From contig JAIBCL010000007.1 of the NCBI GenBank assembly GCA_019694165.1, positions 186,001 to 250,000 of the forward strand: a stretch of 64,000 nt of DNA. Reading direction: 5' to 3'. Shown here in pieces: positions 30,130 through 38,440 of the stretch. The notes below the pieces were generated by a model that saw nothing but the letters and a program-made list of their open reading frames with translations, was not told the DNA's origin and made no database searches. Made by a program: the position numbers and the translations under genes. Position 1 is the stretch's first letter. The number at the start of each line of letters is the position of its first letter. This DNA comes from Verrucomicrobiaceae bacterium (lineage in GTDB: Bacteria > Verrucomicrobiota > Verrucomicrobiia > Verrucomicrobiales > Verrucomicrobiaceae).

Positions 30130-30181
30130 GGGAAACACATGGGCTTGACCGCCGCATGGCGTGCTGTCTCGTGGCCTGCCC

Positions 30182-30397
30182 ATGCCCGAGATCCTCTCCA
30201 CCAGCCTCTTCCGCGAAGTGTGCGATGCCGTGTTCTTCCGTGTGCTGGGCGGGCGCAATGGGCCGGCTTACATCGACATGCTCGATGCGCTGGATCGCGA
30301 GTGCGAGGAGCAGCCGGACGGGCTGGATCGCGCGGAGGCCGTCGAGATCGCGCGATCAGACACTGGTCGTGTCGGCCAAAAGGGAGGGATCAAATGA
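30182..30397 (+). CDS. Small JetA N-terminus-like protein, 71 aa
   Basis: Starts at ATG 30182 and ends overlapping the jetA start by 4 bp (ATGA). Residues 17-52 ('FFRVLGGRNGPAYIDMLDAL...LDRAEAVEI') align with JetA residues 18-56 ('FFRPLARPSAPVYVDCADRL...LSQRETTEI'), sharing FFR, L, P, Y, D, D, L, R, E and EI. It therefore looks like a free-standing copy of the JetA N-terminal helical/winged-helix segment, either a functional small subunit or a truncated paralogue. The tail (RSDTGRVGQKGGIK) is unlike JetA. It is expressed together with jetA if translated. Confidence 0.55.
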   Translation: MPEILSTSLFREVCDAVFFRVLGGRNGPAYIDMLDALDRECEEQPDGLDRAEAVEIARSDTGRVGQKGGIK

Positions 30398-31872
30398 ACG
30401 GCCCTCTCCTCAGCGCCCGTCTCAGTCGCAGCGTTTCGGTCGATTTTTTTCGCCCGCTGGCCCGGCCTTCCGCGCCGGTGTATGTGGACTGCGCCGACAG
30501 GCTGATCGAGGAGGCGGGCGAGGCCGGACGACTCTCGCAGCGGGAGACGACGGAGATCATCAAAGAGGTCATCGCGCGGCATCCGCTTTCGTTGCTGGCC
30601 GAGGACGAAGGTGCTGCGCTGCGCGATGCGCGGCAGCGCGCGGGTCAGTTTTTCAATCGCCTCATCGCTGCCGGCTGGCTGGAAGATCAGACGCTGGGCT
30701 TGCATGAACGCTGGGCCGTCGTCACGCCAGGGCTGCGACCGCTCATGCGCATGCTGCGCGACCTCGCCGAGGATCGCGTGGCGGAGCTGAAAACATTTGC
30801 CGACACCCTGCGCGGCCTTTGCCAGACGCTGGAGGAGCGCGGCGTGCTCGATCCCCAGATCCATCAACCCGACGAACTGCGCTCCACCATCACCGACCTC
30901 TCGCAGCGTCTCGAACGCGCCATCGAGCAACTCCACGCGGTGGAAAAAATCGTCACCAGCTTCGAGCAGCGCCAAAGACAGACCACGACCGCCGCCGACA
31001 CGCTGAATCTGCTCTACGAGGAGTTCGGCCAGGGCCAGCACATGGTCTGCTACGATGCCTTGCGTCGGGGCGGATTGCTCACGCGCATCGAGAACGCTCG
31101 CAGCGCCATCTCCGAGCGTCACGACGACCCGCTCATGCGCGAGCGTCTCGCCGAAGGACTGCGCGAGCACTACGGCTACGACAACTCGGAGTCCTACGAT
31201 CAGGCGGTCACGATGCTCACCAAGCTCGAACGTGATCTCGGCGGCCTGAAACGGCGCGCGGAGGCCATCGATCTGCGCATGGCCGCCTTCAACCGCCTCA
31301 GCCAGCAGCGTTATCGCTACCAGACCGAGCTGCGCGGCCGGCGACCGGAGATCATCAAAGCCTACTGCGACGCGATCAACGCCGCACGCGCCGGCGGTCG
31401 CTTTTCCGAGTTTGCAGGCCAGCCTGCCGATTTCTCGCCCCGCTGTGTCGAGACACGCTTCTTCTTCGGCACCGAGTCGCTCTACAAACCGCGCCGCACC
31501 AAGTCGCCCGTCGATCTCACGTTCGGTGAGAGTGGTGCCTCAAAACAAAGCGAAGATGACGTGCTCGCCGCTTGGAAAGAGCGCCAGCGCCTGGCCCTCA
31601 CACCGCAACGTGCCGCGCGCCTCGTCGCGAAGCTGCTGCCCGCCAAAGGCCGCTCGACGAGCACCGAAGACATCACCTTGGAGACCACCGACGATCTGCT
31701 CGATCTCCTCGCCGTCGTCGCCTACGAGCACGCGCCCGCCCTCGCTGGCAAACGCATCCGCTGGAATGTCGATGGCCTCCGCCGTCGAAACGGCCTGGAG
31801 CCACATGTTCTCGAGCACGATGAGATCGCTGAACACCGCGTGGAGCGGTTTGCGATCACACGAGAGGGGTGA
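30394..31872 (+). CDS. jetA: Wadjet defence protein JetA (kleisin-like)
   Basis: 492 aa, ATG 30394 with an AGGGAGG ribosome site. It begins 'VDFFRPLARPSAPVYVDCADRLIEEAGE', a typical JetA opening, then 'RAGQFFNRLIAAGWLE', 'PGLRPLMRMLRDLAEDR', 'LNLLYEEFGQGQHMVCYDALRRGGLLTRI' and coiled-coil segments 'RLERAIEQLHAVEKIV' and 'MLTKLERDLGGLKRRAE'. JetA is the kleisin subunit that bridges the JetC SMC-type ATPase in Wadjet, a system that extrudes DNA loops and cuts small circular DNA such as plasmids. Subtype not assigned from sequence alone. It is followed by a two-gene insertion before jetB. Confidence 0.88.
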   Translation: MNGPLLSARLSRSVSVDFFRPLARPSAPVYVDCADRLIEEAGEAGRLSQRETTEIIKEVIARHPLSLLAEDEGAALRDARQRAGQFFNRLIAAGWLEDQTLGLHERWAVVTPGLRPLMRMLRDLAEDRVAELKTFADTLRGLCQTLEERGVLDPQIHQPDELRSTITDLSQRLERAIEQLHAVEKIVTSFEQRQRQTTTAADTLNLLYEEFGQGQHMVCYDALRRGGLLTRIENARSAISERHDDPLMRERLAEGLREHYGYDNSESYDQAVTMLTKLERDLGGLKRRAEAIDLRMAAFNRLSQQRYRYQTELRGRRPEIIKAYCDAINAARAGGRFSEFAGQPADFSPRCVETRFFFGTESLYKPRRTKSPVDLTFGESGASKQSEDDVLAAWKERQRLALTPQRAARLVAKLLPAKGRSTSTEDITLETTDDLLDLLAVVAYEHAPALAGKRIRWNVDGLRRRNGLEPHVLEHDEIAEHRVERFAITREG

Positions 31873-31919: not shown

Positions 31920-32195
31920 ATGCAGTTCATCCAGAGTCCGCCAGAACTTCATCCGCTCATGGACGCCATTCGTCGTGATCGCGTGATCAGGGCGCGGAGG
32001 CAAACTCCCGAGGAGCGCTTCGCGGAGGCGATGGAGATGACCGACTTCGCTTTCGAGGTGATGGAGGCATCGGTAAAGGATTCCCATCCAGGTGCGGATG
32101 ACGAAACGGTGACTCGCATTTTGCGGGATCGGCTGGCCCGTCTCCGGAAACGTGAAGACAGGGGAATCTTCGTCCCATTGGAGAAGCCCGAATGA
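31920..32195 (+). CDS. Small partner of nucleotidyltransferase, 91 aa
   Basis: Begins 'MQFIQSPPELHPLMDAIRRDRVIRARRQTPEERFAEAMEMTDFAFEVMEA' and continues 'PGADDETVTRILRDRLARLRKRED'. The 'ARR-x-T-P-E-E-R-F' motif and the 'HPGADDE...RLARLR' tail are typical of small proteins paired with stand-alone nucleotidyltransferases in Planctomycetes and Verrucomicrobia. The role is not established; a toxin-antitoxin-like arrangement is a common interpretation. Its stop overlaps the next start by 4 bp (ATGA), so the pair is coupled. It begins 47 bp after jetA. Confidence 0.75.
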   Translation: MQFIQSPPELHPLMDAIRRDRVIRARRQTPEERFAEAMEMTDFAFEVMEASVKDSHPGADDETVTRILRDRLARLRKREDRGIFVPLEKPE

Positions 32196-32749
32196 AGCAA
32201 AGCGAACTGGTAGCCTTCGTCCTGGAAGCAGCGGATCGCGCCGCCGTATCCTGCATGGTGGGAGGCTCCGTGGCCTGCATGAATTACATGATTCCTCGGG
32301 CCACGAAAGACTTCGATCTGGTGATTCAGATTCAAGAGCCGCAGTTCACCGCTTTTCTCCAGGAAGTGGATTCGCAGTTTCAGTTGGACCCGCAGGTGTA
32401 TATCGAAACGCTGACAGGCACGAAACGCTACATCCTGAAACATCGCACGACGGCGTTTGATGTGGAGCTTTTCATTCTCAGCGAGGATCCACACCACCTC
32501 TCCATGTGGAGCCGGAAGCGGCTTCGTCGGCAGGTTTTCTGCACGCGCGATGCCTGGACGGCAACAGCCGAGGACATGATCATCCAAAAACTGCGCTGGG
32601 CGCGTCCGCAGGATCTTGTGGACGCCGACAGCATGATCGTCGTGCAAGGCGATGAACTCGACTGGCCATACATCGAGCACTGGTGTGATCTGCATGGCAC
32701 CCGTGACAGGTTGGAAAAAATTCGGGCGGACATTCCTCCGGTGACTTGA
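32192..32749 (+). CDS. Nucleotidyltransferase (AbiEii/DUF6036-like) inside the Wadjet locus
   Basis: 185 aa. The nucleotidyltransferase core 'CMVGGSVACMNY...RATKDFDLVIQI' gives GGS plus D-x-D (D-F-D) at about residues 24-48, and 'TTAFDVELFIL' supplies the third acidic residue. The C-terminal 'TAEDMIIQKLRWARPQDLVDADSMI' and 'LDWPYIEHWCDLHG' are typical of the group used as toxins or stress effectors (AbiEii-like). Coupled to the 91-residue partner. It lies between jetA and jetB, which normally are adjacent, so it is an insertion or an accessory module. Confidence 0.85.
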   Translation: MKQSELVAFVLEAADRAAVSCMVGGSVACMNYMIPRATKDFDLVIQIQEPQFTAFLQEVDSQFQLDPQVYIETLTGTKRYILKHRTTAFDVELFILSEDPHHLSMWSRKRLRRQVFCTRDAWTATAEDMIIQKLRWARPQDLVDADSMIVVQGDELDWPYIEHWCDLHGTRDRLEKIRADIPPVT

Positions 32750-32835: not shown

Positions 32836-33489
32836 ATGTCTGTCTCCACCTCCGATCCTCTCTGGCCGCGCTCCTTTTGGAGTGATGTGCCTGATGGCGA
32901 CCGCGCTGCGCTGCGCGAGGTGCTGGCGGAGTTGCTGGGGCGTGGCGTGTTGCTGGGCGATGAGGGCAGCGGTCGTGAGTTGTATCTGCTGGCGCGCGAT
33001 CACTACCGCACGCATGTGGAGGACTACCTCGCGCCGCTGGCGCTAGAGTTGATCATCGATGAAGAACACTCGCTGCTCCAGGCACGGCCGCGCACCGAGT
33101 CGTGCTTGTTGCTCGGTCGCTTCGACAAGGACGAGACGCTCGCGCTGCTGGCCCTGTGGAGGCTCTACGATGATGAAATCAGCACCGGCAGCCAGGAGGC
33201 GGTGATTGTCACCGTCGATCAGTTGTGGGCCGCGCTGAAGGTATACTTCGACAAAGTCGCCACGCCGGAGAAATCGCAGATCGAAGCCTGCCTCGCGCGG
33301 TTGCGCCGTCATCGCCTCATCCGCACGCTGAAGCCCGAAGGCATGACGCAGGCTGGCGAGATGCAGATTGAGATCCTGCCGAGCCTCGCACGGGTGATTC
33401 CCTTTGATGACATCGCTGCCTGGCAGGCGCGGGTAGAGCAGTTTCAGCCGCCGAAGGATGGCGCGGATGCCGGGGAGGTGCTGGCATGA
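32836..33489 (+). CDS. jetB: Wadjet defence protein JetB (DUF4194, KITE-like)
   Basis: 217 aa from ATG 32836 (start upstream at 32767 would add a cysteine-rich stretch unlike the family). It has 'FWSDVPDGDRAALREVLAELLGRGVLL', 'HYRTHVEDYLAPLALELIIDEEHSLLQARP', 'LALLALWRLYDDEIS', 'VTVDQLWAALKVYFDK' and 'CLARLRRHRLIRTL', the pattern of tandem winged-helix DUF4194 proteins. JetB dimers bind the JetA kleisin next to the JetC coiled coils. Its stop overlaps the jetC start by 4 bp. Confidence 0.9.
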   Translation: MSVSTSDPLWPRSFWSDVPDGDRAALREVLAELLGRGVLLGDEGSGRELYLLARDHYRTHVEDYLAPLALELIIDEEHSLLQARPRTESCLLLGRFDKDETLALLALWRLYDDEISTGSQEAVIVTVDQLWAALKVYFDKVATPEKSQIEACLARLRRHRLIRTLKPEGMTQAGEMQIEILPSLARVIPFDDIAAWQARVEQFQPPKDGADAGEVLA

Positions 33490-36400
33490 GTCATTCACGC
33501 ATCACCTTGAGCCGCATCCTTGCGGTGAACTGGTATGGCTACCGCCAGTTCATCGATGTGGCCGGCCTCTCGCTGATCACGGGCGCAAACGGCAGCGGGA
33601 AGAGCGCGCTGCTCGACCTCATTCAGTTTGTCCTGCTCGGTGAACAGCAGAGCCGCTTCAACAAAGCAGCAGCCGGCGCTGGCAGCGGCCGCTCTTTGCG
33701 TGGCTACTGTCTTTGCGACACGAACACCGTCGGTCGTGATGGCGCGGAACGCTACCTGCGACCGAGCAGCGTCACGCTCGCTGGCCTTGAGTTCACCTGG
33801 CCGCTTCAATCCGGCGAGACCGAGCCGCGTCGCGAGACGTGGGGCGCGCGCATTGAATACGAAAGCCCGACGGCCAAGCCCTCCACGATCTGGTTTCGCG
33901 CGGGCCGTCGCCTTGCGTGGCAGGATTTCCTCAACAACGAAGCCGGGCCGCAGGCGATGCAGTTCATGCCCGAAGACGAGTTCCGCACGCGCGTAAAACG
34001 CGAACTCGACGGCGACGTGTGGGACCGGCAGAAGGCTTACCTCGATGAGATGGCCATGCGCAGTCATCTTGGCTTTGATCCCGAACAAATGGGCAAGACG
34101 CTTCCGCGCGCGATGGCCTTCGAGCCGGAGAGCAACTTCGAGAAGTTCGTGCGCGAGTTTCTTCTCGAACCCGGCATGCCCGACGTGAAGGCCGTGAAAG
34201 CCAGCGTCGATGCGCATCGCCGCGCTCAGGAGAGACTGGAGAAAATGCACGATCAGCTCGGGCGGCTGAAGCGCATCTCCACGCATCATCAGGATTGGGT
34301 CACGTCAAAGCGTGAGTCCGCGCTCTACTCGCATCTCAGCGAGGCATTGAAACACGAGGAGGCGCTGGAGAATCTGAACCGCCGACGCACGACGCTTGAA
34401 GACCGCCGCGTCGAACACGCCGACAACGTGGAAGCACACGAGCAGGCCATGGAAGAGCGCGAGCGCCTTCGCCACGCCGTCGAGGCCGCGCGCGCTTCAC
34501 TCGGAGACAAGGCACTCAAGCTAGAAGAAAACGACCGTCGTCGTCGCGAGACGGAAAAGGAGATCTCCAGGCTCGATGCCGCCGCCACCAGTCTCCGAGA
34601 TGTTTTGCGCAATCACCTGCGCCGCTGGCAGGACTGGACGCTCCACGCATCGCGGCTTGGCCTGAATGTTCTCGAGAGCGCTTCAGCCGGCATTTCTGGC
34701 ATGAAGAGCGCGGATGAGAATCGTGCGCTGGCCGCTGCGCGCGAGATGCCGGCGGTGTACATCCAGCTGCGCGACGAAGCGATGGAAGCGCTCCGTCCCG
34801 TCGAAGCACGGCTCGCCGAGCACGAGGTGCGGAAGGCAGCTCTGCAAAAGGATCTCGGCCACCTACGCGAGGGACAGGCATCGCCCGCGCCGCTTTTGAA
34901 TGCGCTGCTCGCCCGCGGCCAGAAGGCGGTGGCCCTTGGCCGGGTGGTGGAGGTGAAGCCCGCCGCCGAGAAATGGTGGCCGCTGCTGGAGGCAATGCTC
35001 GGCGTTCATCGCCGTGCCATCCTGCCGGAAGATTTTCGCGCGGCGTGGGATCAGGCGCAGCAACATCCGAGCACCGCCGAGCCGCTGATTCATCCTGACG
35101 AACTCCGCAAGACGGCGTTTACCAAAGTCGAGAAGGGCTCGCTGCGCGACATGCTCGAGACGAAGCACGAGGCAGCCGGCCGTTTCCTCGATCATCTGCT
35201 CGGCGGCATTGTGGGCGTGAACAAAGCCTCGCAGCTCGACAAACACGAGCGCGCGCTGTCGCTCGACGGCTGGTTCAAGGATCCGCCGCGTCGCATCAAG
35301 CTCACGCCGGAGAAAGAATTCACGCTCGGCGAGGAAGGTCTCCGTCGGCTCCGTGATCTGCGCGAGGGCGAACTGCGCGACACCGAAGCCGTGATCGAAG
35401 AAGTCCGGCGAGATTGCGAAGACCTGCGAGCATTCATCAATCGGGGTCGCGAATGGCGGCTCGATCACTTCACCGCGCCCGAAGGCAGCGACGAGGTTCA
35501 TCTTTTGCCGAAGCTCCGCAAGGAACTCGGCGAGCTTCAGGCCACATGGGAGCTGCTCGCGACACCCGACAACGTGAAGGCGATGGAGAATCTGCGCGTG
35601 CAAAACGCGACGCTGGAAGGCATTCACGAGCGCATCGGCAGTCTCAAGACGGCGATCACTGCCTTCACCGTCGAGCAGGCGCGACTCGAAGAAGCCATCA
35701 GCGAGGATGTTTTTCAGGAGGAGCAAACTCGCATCGCGCGACAGACTTCGCGGGCGCTCGTGCTGGGGGTTTCTGACGATGAAATCACCGCGCGCATCGA
35801 CGCTGAACGTCAAAAATCAACGAGCTGGCGCAAGTCCATCGAGATGGCCGCCACGCTGGCTGTGCAGCTCGAAACCCGCGCACAGGAAGCGCGCCGTCTG
35901 CGTGACGAACAGCGCCGCGAGCTTGTGACTGTTCACGCCGATCTCAGCGACGCTCTCGACTCTGATGCGGAGGACAACGCCGCCTTTGACCAGCGCCGCG
36001 AGGATCTCGAAACGCATGAGCTTGAGCGCTTCAAGACCGCCGCCGATGAGGCCCGCAAGGAGTGGGAGGACCGCCTCCAGCATCAGGTGCTCGACGTGCT
36101 CCGCGAAAAGCTCAGCGAGGCCGATCGCACAAAGCGCGAGCTGAACCGCGCGATGGATCACGAGATCGGCGGCTGGCGCTACCAGCTTACCAGCCGCGCC
36201 GACAAGGCGCACACGGCGATCTGGACGCTCGTCGATAAAGGCCTGCCGGCCGGAGCCGAGATGGAGCTTTTCAATGCTGCAGGACGCGAAGACATCGAGC
36301 GCGCCAAGGCCGAACTCATGGCGGCCATCGACGCCGCCGACAATCCCGAGGACAAGCGCCATCAGCGCATGCTCGACTACCGCTACTACCACCACTGGGA

Positions 36401-36827
36401 CATCGAGGCGAAGCCCGCCGGTCGTGGTGATGCCGCTGCCATCAGCCTGAACAAGAGCGCGAAAAAACAGAGCGGCGGTGAAAACCAGGCGCCGTTCTTT
36501 GTCGCCACGCTCGCCGCCTTCCGTCGTGTGTATGATCTCGGCCGCCGGGATGCGCAGCAGAATCTGGGGCTCGTCGTAATGGACGAGGCATTCAGCAAGC
36601 TCAGCGGCGACCGCATCGACGACTGCCTCGCCCTTGCCCGCAACTTCGGCCTCCAACTCATCATGGCCTTCCCCGAAGACCGCCTCCCCACGATGTTCCA
36701 GCACGCCGACACCGTTGTGCAGTGTCGAGTCGAGCGCAGCTACGACGAAGAGACGGAGCAGGTGAAGAATATCGAGAACTGGGTCGTCCGCGTCGAGGGC
36801 AGCAGGCTTGCGGAGCTGATGGAGTGA
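33486..36827 (+). CDS. jetC: Wadjet defence protein JetC (SMC-type ATPase)
   Basis: 1113 aa. The ATPase head is split between the termini as in SMC proteins: Walker A GANGSGKS at residues 33-40, signature SGGEN at 996-1000, and Walker B 'LGLVVMDEAF' with D1033 and E1034. Between them are long charged coiled coils (about 240-370 and 840-910) flanking a central hinge-like region (about 400-790). JetC powers DNA loop extrusion in the Wadjet complex. Length is standard for the family, and all ATPase motifs are intact, so the enzyme should be functional. Confidence 0.95.
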   Translation: MSHSRITLSRILAVNWYGYRQFIDVAGLSLITGANGSGKSALLDLIQFVLLGEQQSRFNKAAAGAGSGRSLRGYCLCDTNTVGRDGAERYLRPSSVTLAGLEFTWPLQSGETEPRRETWGARIEYESPTAKPSTIWFRAGRRLAWQDFLNNEAGPQAMQFMPEDEFRTRVKRELDGDVWDRQKAYLDEMAMRSHLGFDPEQMGKTLPRAMAFEPESNFEKFVREFLLEPGMPDVKAVKASVDAHRRAQERLEKMHDQLGRLKRISTHHQDWVTSKRESALYSHLSEALKHEEALENLNRRRTTLEDRRVEHADNVEAHEQAMEERERLRHAVEAARASLGDKALKLEENDRRRRETEKEISRLDAAATSLRDVLRNHLRRWQDWTLHASRLGLNVLESASAGISGMKSADENRALAAAREMPAVYIQLRDEAMEALRPVEARLAEHEVRKAALQKDLGHLREGQASPAPLLNALLARGQKAVALGRVVEVKPAAEKWWPLLEAMLGVHRRAILPEDFRAAWDQAQQHPSTAEPLIHPDELRKTAFTKVEKGSLRDMLETKHEAAGRFLDHLLGGIVGVNKASQLDKHERALSLDGWFKDPPRRIKLTPEKEFTLGEEGLRRLRDLREGELRDTEAVIEEVRRDCEDLRAFINRGREWRLDHFTAPEGSDEVHLLPKLRKELGELQATWELLATPDNVKAMENLRVQNATLEGIHERIGSLKTAITAFTVEQARLEEAISEDVFQEEQTRIARQTSRALVLGVSDDEITARIDAERQKSTSWRKSIEMAATLAVQLETRAQEARRLRDEQRRELVTVHADLSDALDSDAEDNAAFDQRREDLETHELERFKTAADEARKEWEDRLQHQVLDVLREKLSEADRTKRELNRAMDHEIGGWRYQLTSRADKAHTAIWTLVDKGLPAGAEMELFNAAGREDIERAKAELMAAIDAADNPEDKRHQRMLDYRYYHHWDIEAKPAGRGDAAAISLNKSAKKQSGGENQAPFFVATLAAFRRVYDLGRRDAQQNLGLVVMDEAFSKLSGDRIDDCLALARNFGLQLIMAFPEDRLPTMFQHADTVVQCRVERSYDEETEQVKNIENWVVRVEGSRLAELME

Positions 36828-37240
36828 AAAAGTAGTGCTGGGCTTCAGCTCGATGCCGTTGGGAAACACATCAGATGTGAGGACAGCGGGCATCCGGAGG
36901 CGAACGGTCTCATTCCCCCTCACCCCAGCCCTCTCCCCGTGGGAGAGGGAGACGGTGGCGCTGCCGCGCCAGGAACAAGCGAGCTTCGCAAGATCGAGCG
37001 GCAGCTCGCTCTTCTCCCTCTCCCATTGGGAGAGGGCTGGGGTGAGGGGGTGGTTTTTCGTTTGCTGTGAGCGTTGGCGTTCGCTCGTCAATTGTTGTTC
37101 AAGGGCATTCAGCCTGAGCCCGTACAGGTCTTGCAGCGCGGATTGTCGGTGGATCAGTCAGCGACGTTTTCACAAGCTAAAGCTCATGACCACTTTGCTT
37201 CGCCCTCTTGTCCGCCACTAATTCTTCGGCACGATGAGCC
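36828..37240. other. Gap between jetC and jetD containing an inverted-repeat element
   Basis: 413 bp without a credible gene. It contains the 136-bp palindromic element described at 36915-37050; the flanks hold no recognisable feature. In other Wadjet loci the four genes are usually tightly packed, so the gap is probably a later insertion. Confidence 0.7.
36915..37050. repeat. REP/MITE-like inverted repeat between jetC and jetD
   Basis: A 23-bp perfect inverted repeat (36915-36937 and 37028-37050; right arm GGGAGAGGGCTGGGGTGAGG plus three G). Each end is also a hairpin: CCCTCTCCC-CGT-GGGAGAGGG near 36930-36948 and CCCTCTCCC-ATT-GGGAGAGGG near 37017-37036. There is no open frame inside. The CCCTCACCCCAGCCCTCTCCC-type sequence is a commonly dispersed bacterial repeat; whether other copies exist in this genome cannot be seen here. 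Confidence 0.85.
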
Positions 37241-38440
37241 ATGCGCTGGCTGCAAACGCTTCACGAGCAATGGATGTCCGCCCGGAAACGGCGTGTGGCG
37301 GCGGCGGTGCGGCCGTTTCACCGGGATTGGGAAGGGTTGCTCGATGACGCCGGAGTGAAAACGGCGGAGGACCGACAGGCCGCGCAACGAGAGGCGGCGA
37401 ACTCACCACTCAAGTTGATCCCATTCAAGAAGAAGCCTCGCTTCATCGACAAGATCGAAGTGCCGCTCGAGTCAGAGGCGTGGCTTCACGGTCAGTTCGG
37501 CACTCAAACCGGCGCGGAAGCACAGGCGAAGGCGCTCTCGGTCGTCAAGCGCTGGGCCGCGCAACCTCATCCGTTGCTATCCGAGGTTTGGTCAGCGCTG
37601 TGCAGGCGTTTGGAAGCCGAGTTCGCCATTCCACGAGCGGTGGAGCCATTCCGCTGGCTGGAGTCGGAGCGCGTCGATGAGCTGCTAGGGCTCCTGTTTC
37701 AGCTCACCTCTCGCGAGTGGACGGAGGGCACGCTGATCCGTGATGCGAGCACTCAGCTCGCTCATCCTTCGAAGTATCTCGAATCGCAGCAGAGCTTCAT
37801 CGAGCGCGGGCTGGAGCAGCTCTTTGGTCGCGAGACGCCGCTGGAGTCACTCGGCATTCAGACGAGCAACAGCGTCCTGCATTTCAGCGGACCGCTCACG
37901 CTGCACTTCGCAGATGGCACCGCACACGTCACCGATGCGCTTCGCTACGAGTCCACGCTGCCTGTGGCCGAGATCGAGCGCGCCGTGCGCATCACTACCA
38001 CGGCAAAGCGTTTGCTGACTGTCGAGAACCGCAAGACGACCTTCCTCCAACTCGCCCGCGCGGATGCGAACCGCACCACGCTGATCGTCGCCACCTCGTT
38101 CCCGACTCAAGCCGTGCGCCGTCTCCTCGAAAAGCTCCCTAGCGACCTGCCGCATCATCACTTCGGAGACACCGATCCGGCCGGATTCCTCATCCTGCAA
38201 AAGCTGCGGCAAGCGAGTCCGCAACGGGTGAGTGCATTTCACATGCGGCATCGGTCATCGCCAAACTCGCCCGTGCTCACGCGGAGCGAACTGCGCGTCA
38301 TCGAGCAACTTGTCGCCGATCCCGCGATGGAGGATTGTCATGCTCCTTTGCGCGTGATGTTCGAAACAGGACGGCGTGGTGACTTTGAGCAGGAATCCCT
38401 GGGGCCGCCGTCGGTCGGTGGCTGGCCCTTCTTTGAATGA
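37241..38440 (+). CDS. jetD: Wadjet defence nuclease JetD (Toprim domain)
   Basis: 399 aa. The N-terminal DUF3322-like half (about 40-190) contains 'LPLESEAWLHGQFGT', 'LLSEVWSALCRRLEAEF' and 'RVDELLGLLFQLTSREWTEG'. The C-terminal DUF2220/Toprim half has the catalytic Glu in 'VENRKTTF' (E262) and the acidic pair D310-x-D312 in 'HHHFGDTDPAGFLIL'. JetD cuts DNA when the JetABC complex has extruded a small circle, which eliminates plasmids. The active site is complete. It is separated from jetC by a 413-bp gap with a repeat element. Confidence 0.9.
   Translation: MRWLQTLHEQWMSARKRRVAAAVRPFHRDWEGLLDDAGVKTAEDRQAAQREAANSPLKLIPFKKKPRFIDKIEVPLESEAWLHGQFGTQTGAEAQAKALSVVKRWAAQPHPLLSEVWSALCRRLEAEFAIPRAVEPFRWLESERVDELLGLLFQLTSREWTEGTLIRDASTQLAHPSKYLESQQSFIERGLEQLFGRETPLESLGIQTSNSVLHFSGPLTLHFADGTAHVTDALRYESTLPVAEIERAVRITTTAKRLLTVENRKTTFLQLARADANRTTLIVATSFPTQAVRRLLEKLPSDLPHHHFGDTDPAGFLILQKLRQASPQRVSAFHMRHRSSPNSPVLTRSELRVIEQLVADPAMEDCHAPLRVMFETGRRGDFEQESLGPPSVGGWPFFE

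Follow-up and report, generated by a model that had tools for sequence, protein, structure and literature searches.

What is the small open reading frame that ends on the start codon of a Wadjet jetA gene and appears to repeat the beginning of that gene? In the window, the whole 64,000-nucleotide stretch of a Verrucomicrobiaceae genome analysed here, this forward-strand ORF of 71 codons (71 aa) runs from an ATG at 30182 to a TGA at 30395-30397, and its stop overlaps the jetA ATG (30394) by four bases (ATGA, 30394-30397), exactly as the first-pass annotation had placed it. That annotation also proposed a resemblance to the JetA N-terminus, and the resemblance stands up to alignment. A single BLASTP comparison with the adjacent JetA gave 21/60 identities (35%, E = 2e-4), the local alignment scored 62 where the best of 1000 shuffles scored 52, and residues 9-58 matched positions 3-52 of the PADLOC JetA1 profile PDLC00458, although weakly (E = 0.0045). 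Since the score exceeded all 1000 shuffles and the JetA1 profile was matched, the likeness to JetA is real, and by sequence homology the small ORF belongs with JetA. It covers only residues 1-57 of about 485 and lacks the layout of a full-length kleisin, with its helical middle between an N-terminal and a C-terminal domain. Pfam and NCBIfam profile searches with the small ORF returned no match, and no relative of it was found in plasmid and viral collections.

The gene that follows heads a type I Wadjet operon, whose parts are these:

30394..31872, + strand: jetA (type A, see below), complete, 492 aa (Pfam JetA PF18982, E 4e-23; PADLOC JetA1)
31920..32195, + strand: Rv0078B-related antitoxin-like passenger gene (PF18993, E 1.4e-7)
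32192..32749, + strand: DUF6036 nucleotidyltransferase passenger gene (PF19502, E 9e-7)
32842..33489, + strand: jetB, start codon approximate (PF13835 DUF4194, E 1.5e-22; weak MksE match)
33486..36827, + strand: jetC (PADLOC JetC1, E 1e-127)
37241..38440, + strand: jetD (PADLOC JetD1, E 2.5e-26; Pfam JetD_C)

The four jet genes lie in order on one strand and match type-1 profiles, which is the gene content of a type I Wadjet. The series is interrupted twice, by two passenger genes that separate jetA from jetB and by a gap of 0.4 kb that separates jetC from jetD. The resident JetA is 74-93% identical over nearly its full length to JetAs in 22 family genomes, and its own N-terminus is present, residues 5-65 being 77-93% identical to most relatives and conserved like the rest of the protein. 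Even without the small ORF, the resident Wadjet would be expected to act against plasmids as other type I JetABCD systems do.

The passenger pair (31920-32749) is variable among relatives: it is 92% identical in L073, where the DUF6036 copy sits at the same place, 45% identical in L068 and missing in L064. The two genes are possibly a toxin-antitoxin pair. The jetC-jetD gap holds, at 36915-37050 of the window, a REP-like inverted repeat of 53 bp with 87% complementarity, a loop of 30 nt and CCCTCTCCC..GGGAGAGGG cores.

From which jetA does the small ORF derive? Besides the lineage of the resident jetA, here called type A, other Verrucomicrobiaceae carry a second JetA lineage, type B, which is about 28% identical to the first. 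A search of 68 family genomes matched residues 1-57 of the small ORF to residues 1-57 of type-B JetA in seven genomes (six complete frames of about 485 aa and one interrupted by a contig end) at 65-70% identity (E of about 1e-22 to 1e-23), and in four further type-B genomes at 57-60%. The DNA is likewise 74-79% identical to type-B loci along a stretch of some 160-180 nt that begins near 30171 and ends near 30350; likeness to type-A jetA DNA begins only at about 30408. What the small ORF shares with the type-B JetA1 of type I Wadjets (PF18982; L106-L111, including a Prosthecobacter sp. MAG) is the start codon, together with the first codons that follow it, and residues 1-57. In contrast to these proteins it keeps only 57 of about 485 codons and has neither the rest of the N-terminal block nor the helical region nor the C-terminus. 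Its predicted structure has a mean pLDDT of 58 (47 for a type-B JetA), values too low for either model to be informative, and PDB sequence searches with both JetA lineages gave no JetA match.

This lineage assignment bears on two other origins. The earlier suggestion of a truncated duplicate of jetA was right about the truncation and wrong about the parent. A truncated tandem copy of the neighbouring type-A gene would account for the 35% identity to the neighbour's N-terminus; however, type-B JetAs are twice as similar and the DNA here resembles type B and not type A, which refutes a tandem duplicate and leaves it a negligible probability. The likeness to the neighbouring JetA is secondary and reflects deep JetA homology rather than recent duplication. 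A frame open by chance, as its shortness and the empty Pfam and NCBIfam searches might suggest, has an equally negligible probability, being refuted by the protein matches (E of about 1e-23) and by up to 79% DNA identity to jetA starts.

Homology to type-B jetA stops at about 30350, after residue 57, partway into the conserved N-terminal block of JetA. The small ORF can accordingly be divided in two:

30182..30352, + strand: probable 5' remnant of a type-B jetA, 57 codons (amino acid and DNA identity to type B, relaxed constraint)
30353..30397, + strand: junction, 14 unrelated codons and the stop (no matches, low GC3, TGA-ATG overlap)

The bases between the remnant and jetA had no match in any fetched type-A or type-B locus, and in the frame of the small ORF their GC3 is 0.40, while the remnant reaches 0.86 and jetA 0.78; the composition of the 14 junction codons is non-coding. 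Because the type-B match ends at about 30350 and the tail is matchless and poor in GC3, the small ORF reads as a type-B jetA that breaks off after its 5' end and gives way to unrelated sequence. A 12-bp palindrome at the junction (GATCGCGCGATC, 30346-30357) was considered and set aside, as it recurs in the window no more than expected by chance.

We then asked whether the 57 codons are still maintained. Of the 46 residues that are invariant across the seven type-B genes, 13 are altered in the small ORF, against 0-3 in leave-one-out controls. Compared with the same seven genes, the remnant has a dN of 0.21 against a mean of 0.039, about fivefold, at a similar synonymous distance, and Fisher tests of nonsynonymous versus synonymous codons gave p values of 3e-5 to 0.02 in comparisons that share sequences and are thus not independent. 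Pairwise dN/dS values of the remnant are 0.22-0.50, that is below 1, which is expected if part of its history was under selection and is no proof of neutrality. The small ORF does not show the purifying selection of its intact homologues, a result of limited strength because it concerns a single sequence, and the pattern points to relaxed constraint following truncation.

A conserved stand-alone Wadjet subunit ought to recur. The JetA N-terminal profile matched in 70 of the 289 genomes of the order, nearly always within jetA frames of full length, at least 476 aa. The exceptions are the small ORF itself, a gene at a contig end in G091, and the broken pieces found in G111 and in G243. Only the genome of the window (G000) pairs a remnant in intact frame with an adjoining intact jetA among these 289 genomes, and a phylum sample of 387 genomes yielded, besides the small ORF, full-length genes only. 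No stand-alone copy beside jetA, for which the annotation had recommended a search, was thus found in either set, and the inspected loci of type-A relatives held nothing like the small ORF and no type-B fragment upstream of jetA. These observations, taken with the preceding ones, count against the other earlier proposal, a new Wadjet architecture in which the kleisin N-terminus would be a separate subunit working alongside JetA, JetB and JetC. The proposal had some appeal, as the sequence is genuinely that of a JetA N-terminus, its frame is intact and adjoins jetA, and the kleisin N-terminus joins and dimerises the two motors in solved type I complexes (PMC10586767). However, the resident JetA retains its full N-terminus, the small ORF ends within the conserved block and is under relaxed constraint, and no relative repeats the arrangement; we consider such a subunit highly improbable.

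Three other genomes carry truncated jetA genes that resemble the remnant in being a 5' end without the remaining operon. G160 has 38 type-A jetA codons at a contig end (L081, 5530-5690), at a chromosomal site discussed below; G111 has about 200 broken, frameshifted type-B codons (L082, 9865-10500); and G243 has about 65 type-B codons with a frameshift (L129, 2900-3130), and the 10 kb of sequence retrieved for this locus contain none of jetB, jetC and jetD. Unlike the remnant in the window, the G111 and G243 ends carry frameshifts, the G160 end lies at the edge of its contig, and none of the three precedes an intact jetA of another lineage. The starts of jetA genes seem to be the part left behind when the operon goes.

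Could the remnant nevertheless have been put to use? It might be translated as a leader, the stop-start overlap coupling translation of jetA and setting the JetA level whatever the peptide sequence. The ATGA overlap would suit this role, as would an uninterrupted frame that begins at the old jetA start and has its first codons conserved with type-B genes, but jetA has an SD-like GGGAGGG of its own in the junction, shortly 5' of its ATG, and the jetA genes of relatives do without such a leader, so that we regard it as unlikely. As the kleisin N-terminus links the motors, a peptide corresponding to it might conceivably disturb the complex or assist it, the open frame being the one observation that speaks for this. 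That selection retains the remnant as a small peptide product, engaging the JetA dimerisation region or tuning the JetA level, appears more doubtful still; if true, the scar of an exchanged Wadjet would have turned into a regulator of the newcomer.

How could the start of one lineage come to stand before the gene of another? In a related genus (g3), the same flanking genes enclose type-A operons (L067, L068, L069) and type-B operons (L074, L076, L078), two further type-B loci (L075 and L077) being compared on the upstream side only. The flanking DNA is about 80-90% identical whatever the operon type, and the point at which homology switches lies 6-11 bases 5' of the jetA ATG at one end and, in the one pair compared, some 150 bases 5' of the jetD stop at the other. 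On the evidence of these alignments, entire operons of two JetA lineages that share only about 28% identity replace one another at a single chromosomal site. Types A and B are intermixed in trees of the flanks with mixed support; at least one exchange is required, but how many took place is uncertain. In Pseudomonas aeruginosa, defence systems are gained, lost and exchanged at fixed chromosomal sites, the core defense hotspots (PMC10250203). These hotspots are alike in that defence systems turn over between conserved flanks, whereas in g3 two lineages of one system swap, with switches near the jetA start and inside jetD. Our literature searches found nothing on point concerning Wadjet remnants or Wadjet replacement.

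The 3' end of the resident jetD was also considered. The last 80 residues of JetD (38181-38440) are only 28-62% identical to relatives, far below most of the protein, and a type-B-derived jetD 3' end was suspected because of this poor conservation. The suspicion was dropped, since these residues are equally distant from both lineages (the comparison leaves out rows L069, L076 and L080). Within g3, by contrast, the two lineages share 72-77% identity over the last 40 residues of JetD.

The g3 site does not itself explain where the system of the window lies, because in this genome the corresponding site, on contig C61, is without Wadjet. The flanking genes of the window (M56/secretin-like and PAP2-phosphatase) are, in relatives, not beside Wadjet and not kept together, and no genome was found with a complete type-B operon between them. 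We therefore infer by analogy that replacement took place in this lineage, and at this exact site. A type-B Wadjet operon would formerly have stood here, or else in the donor from which this DNA came; by recombination or deletion the present type-A jetABCD would have replaced it, or the type-B operon would have been lost beside it, leaving the start of the old jetA standing 5' of the new one. The frame of the remnant would then read on through the 14 unrelated codons and end by chance on the resident jetA ATG. A frame still open across 57 codons counts against decay. Nevertheless, we propose with considerable confidence that the small ORF is a dead, decaying 5' remnant, the 57 initial codons that survive of a type-B jetA whose operon was replaced or lost.

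This reading removes a candidate new Wadjet architecture and makes of the small ORF a physical trace of defence-system turnover. The clearer case of exchange is that of g3, with switches beside the jetA start and in the last 50 codons of jetD, and with more genomes its tempo and mechanism would be testable.
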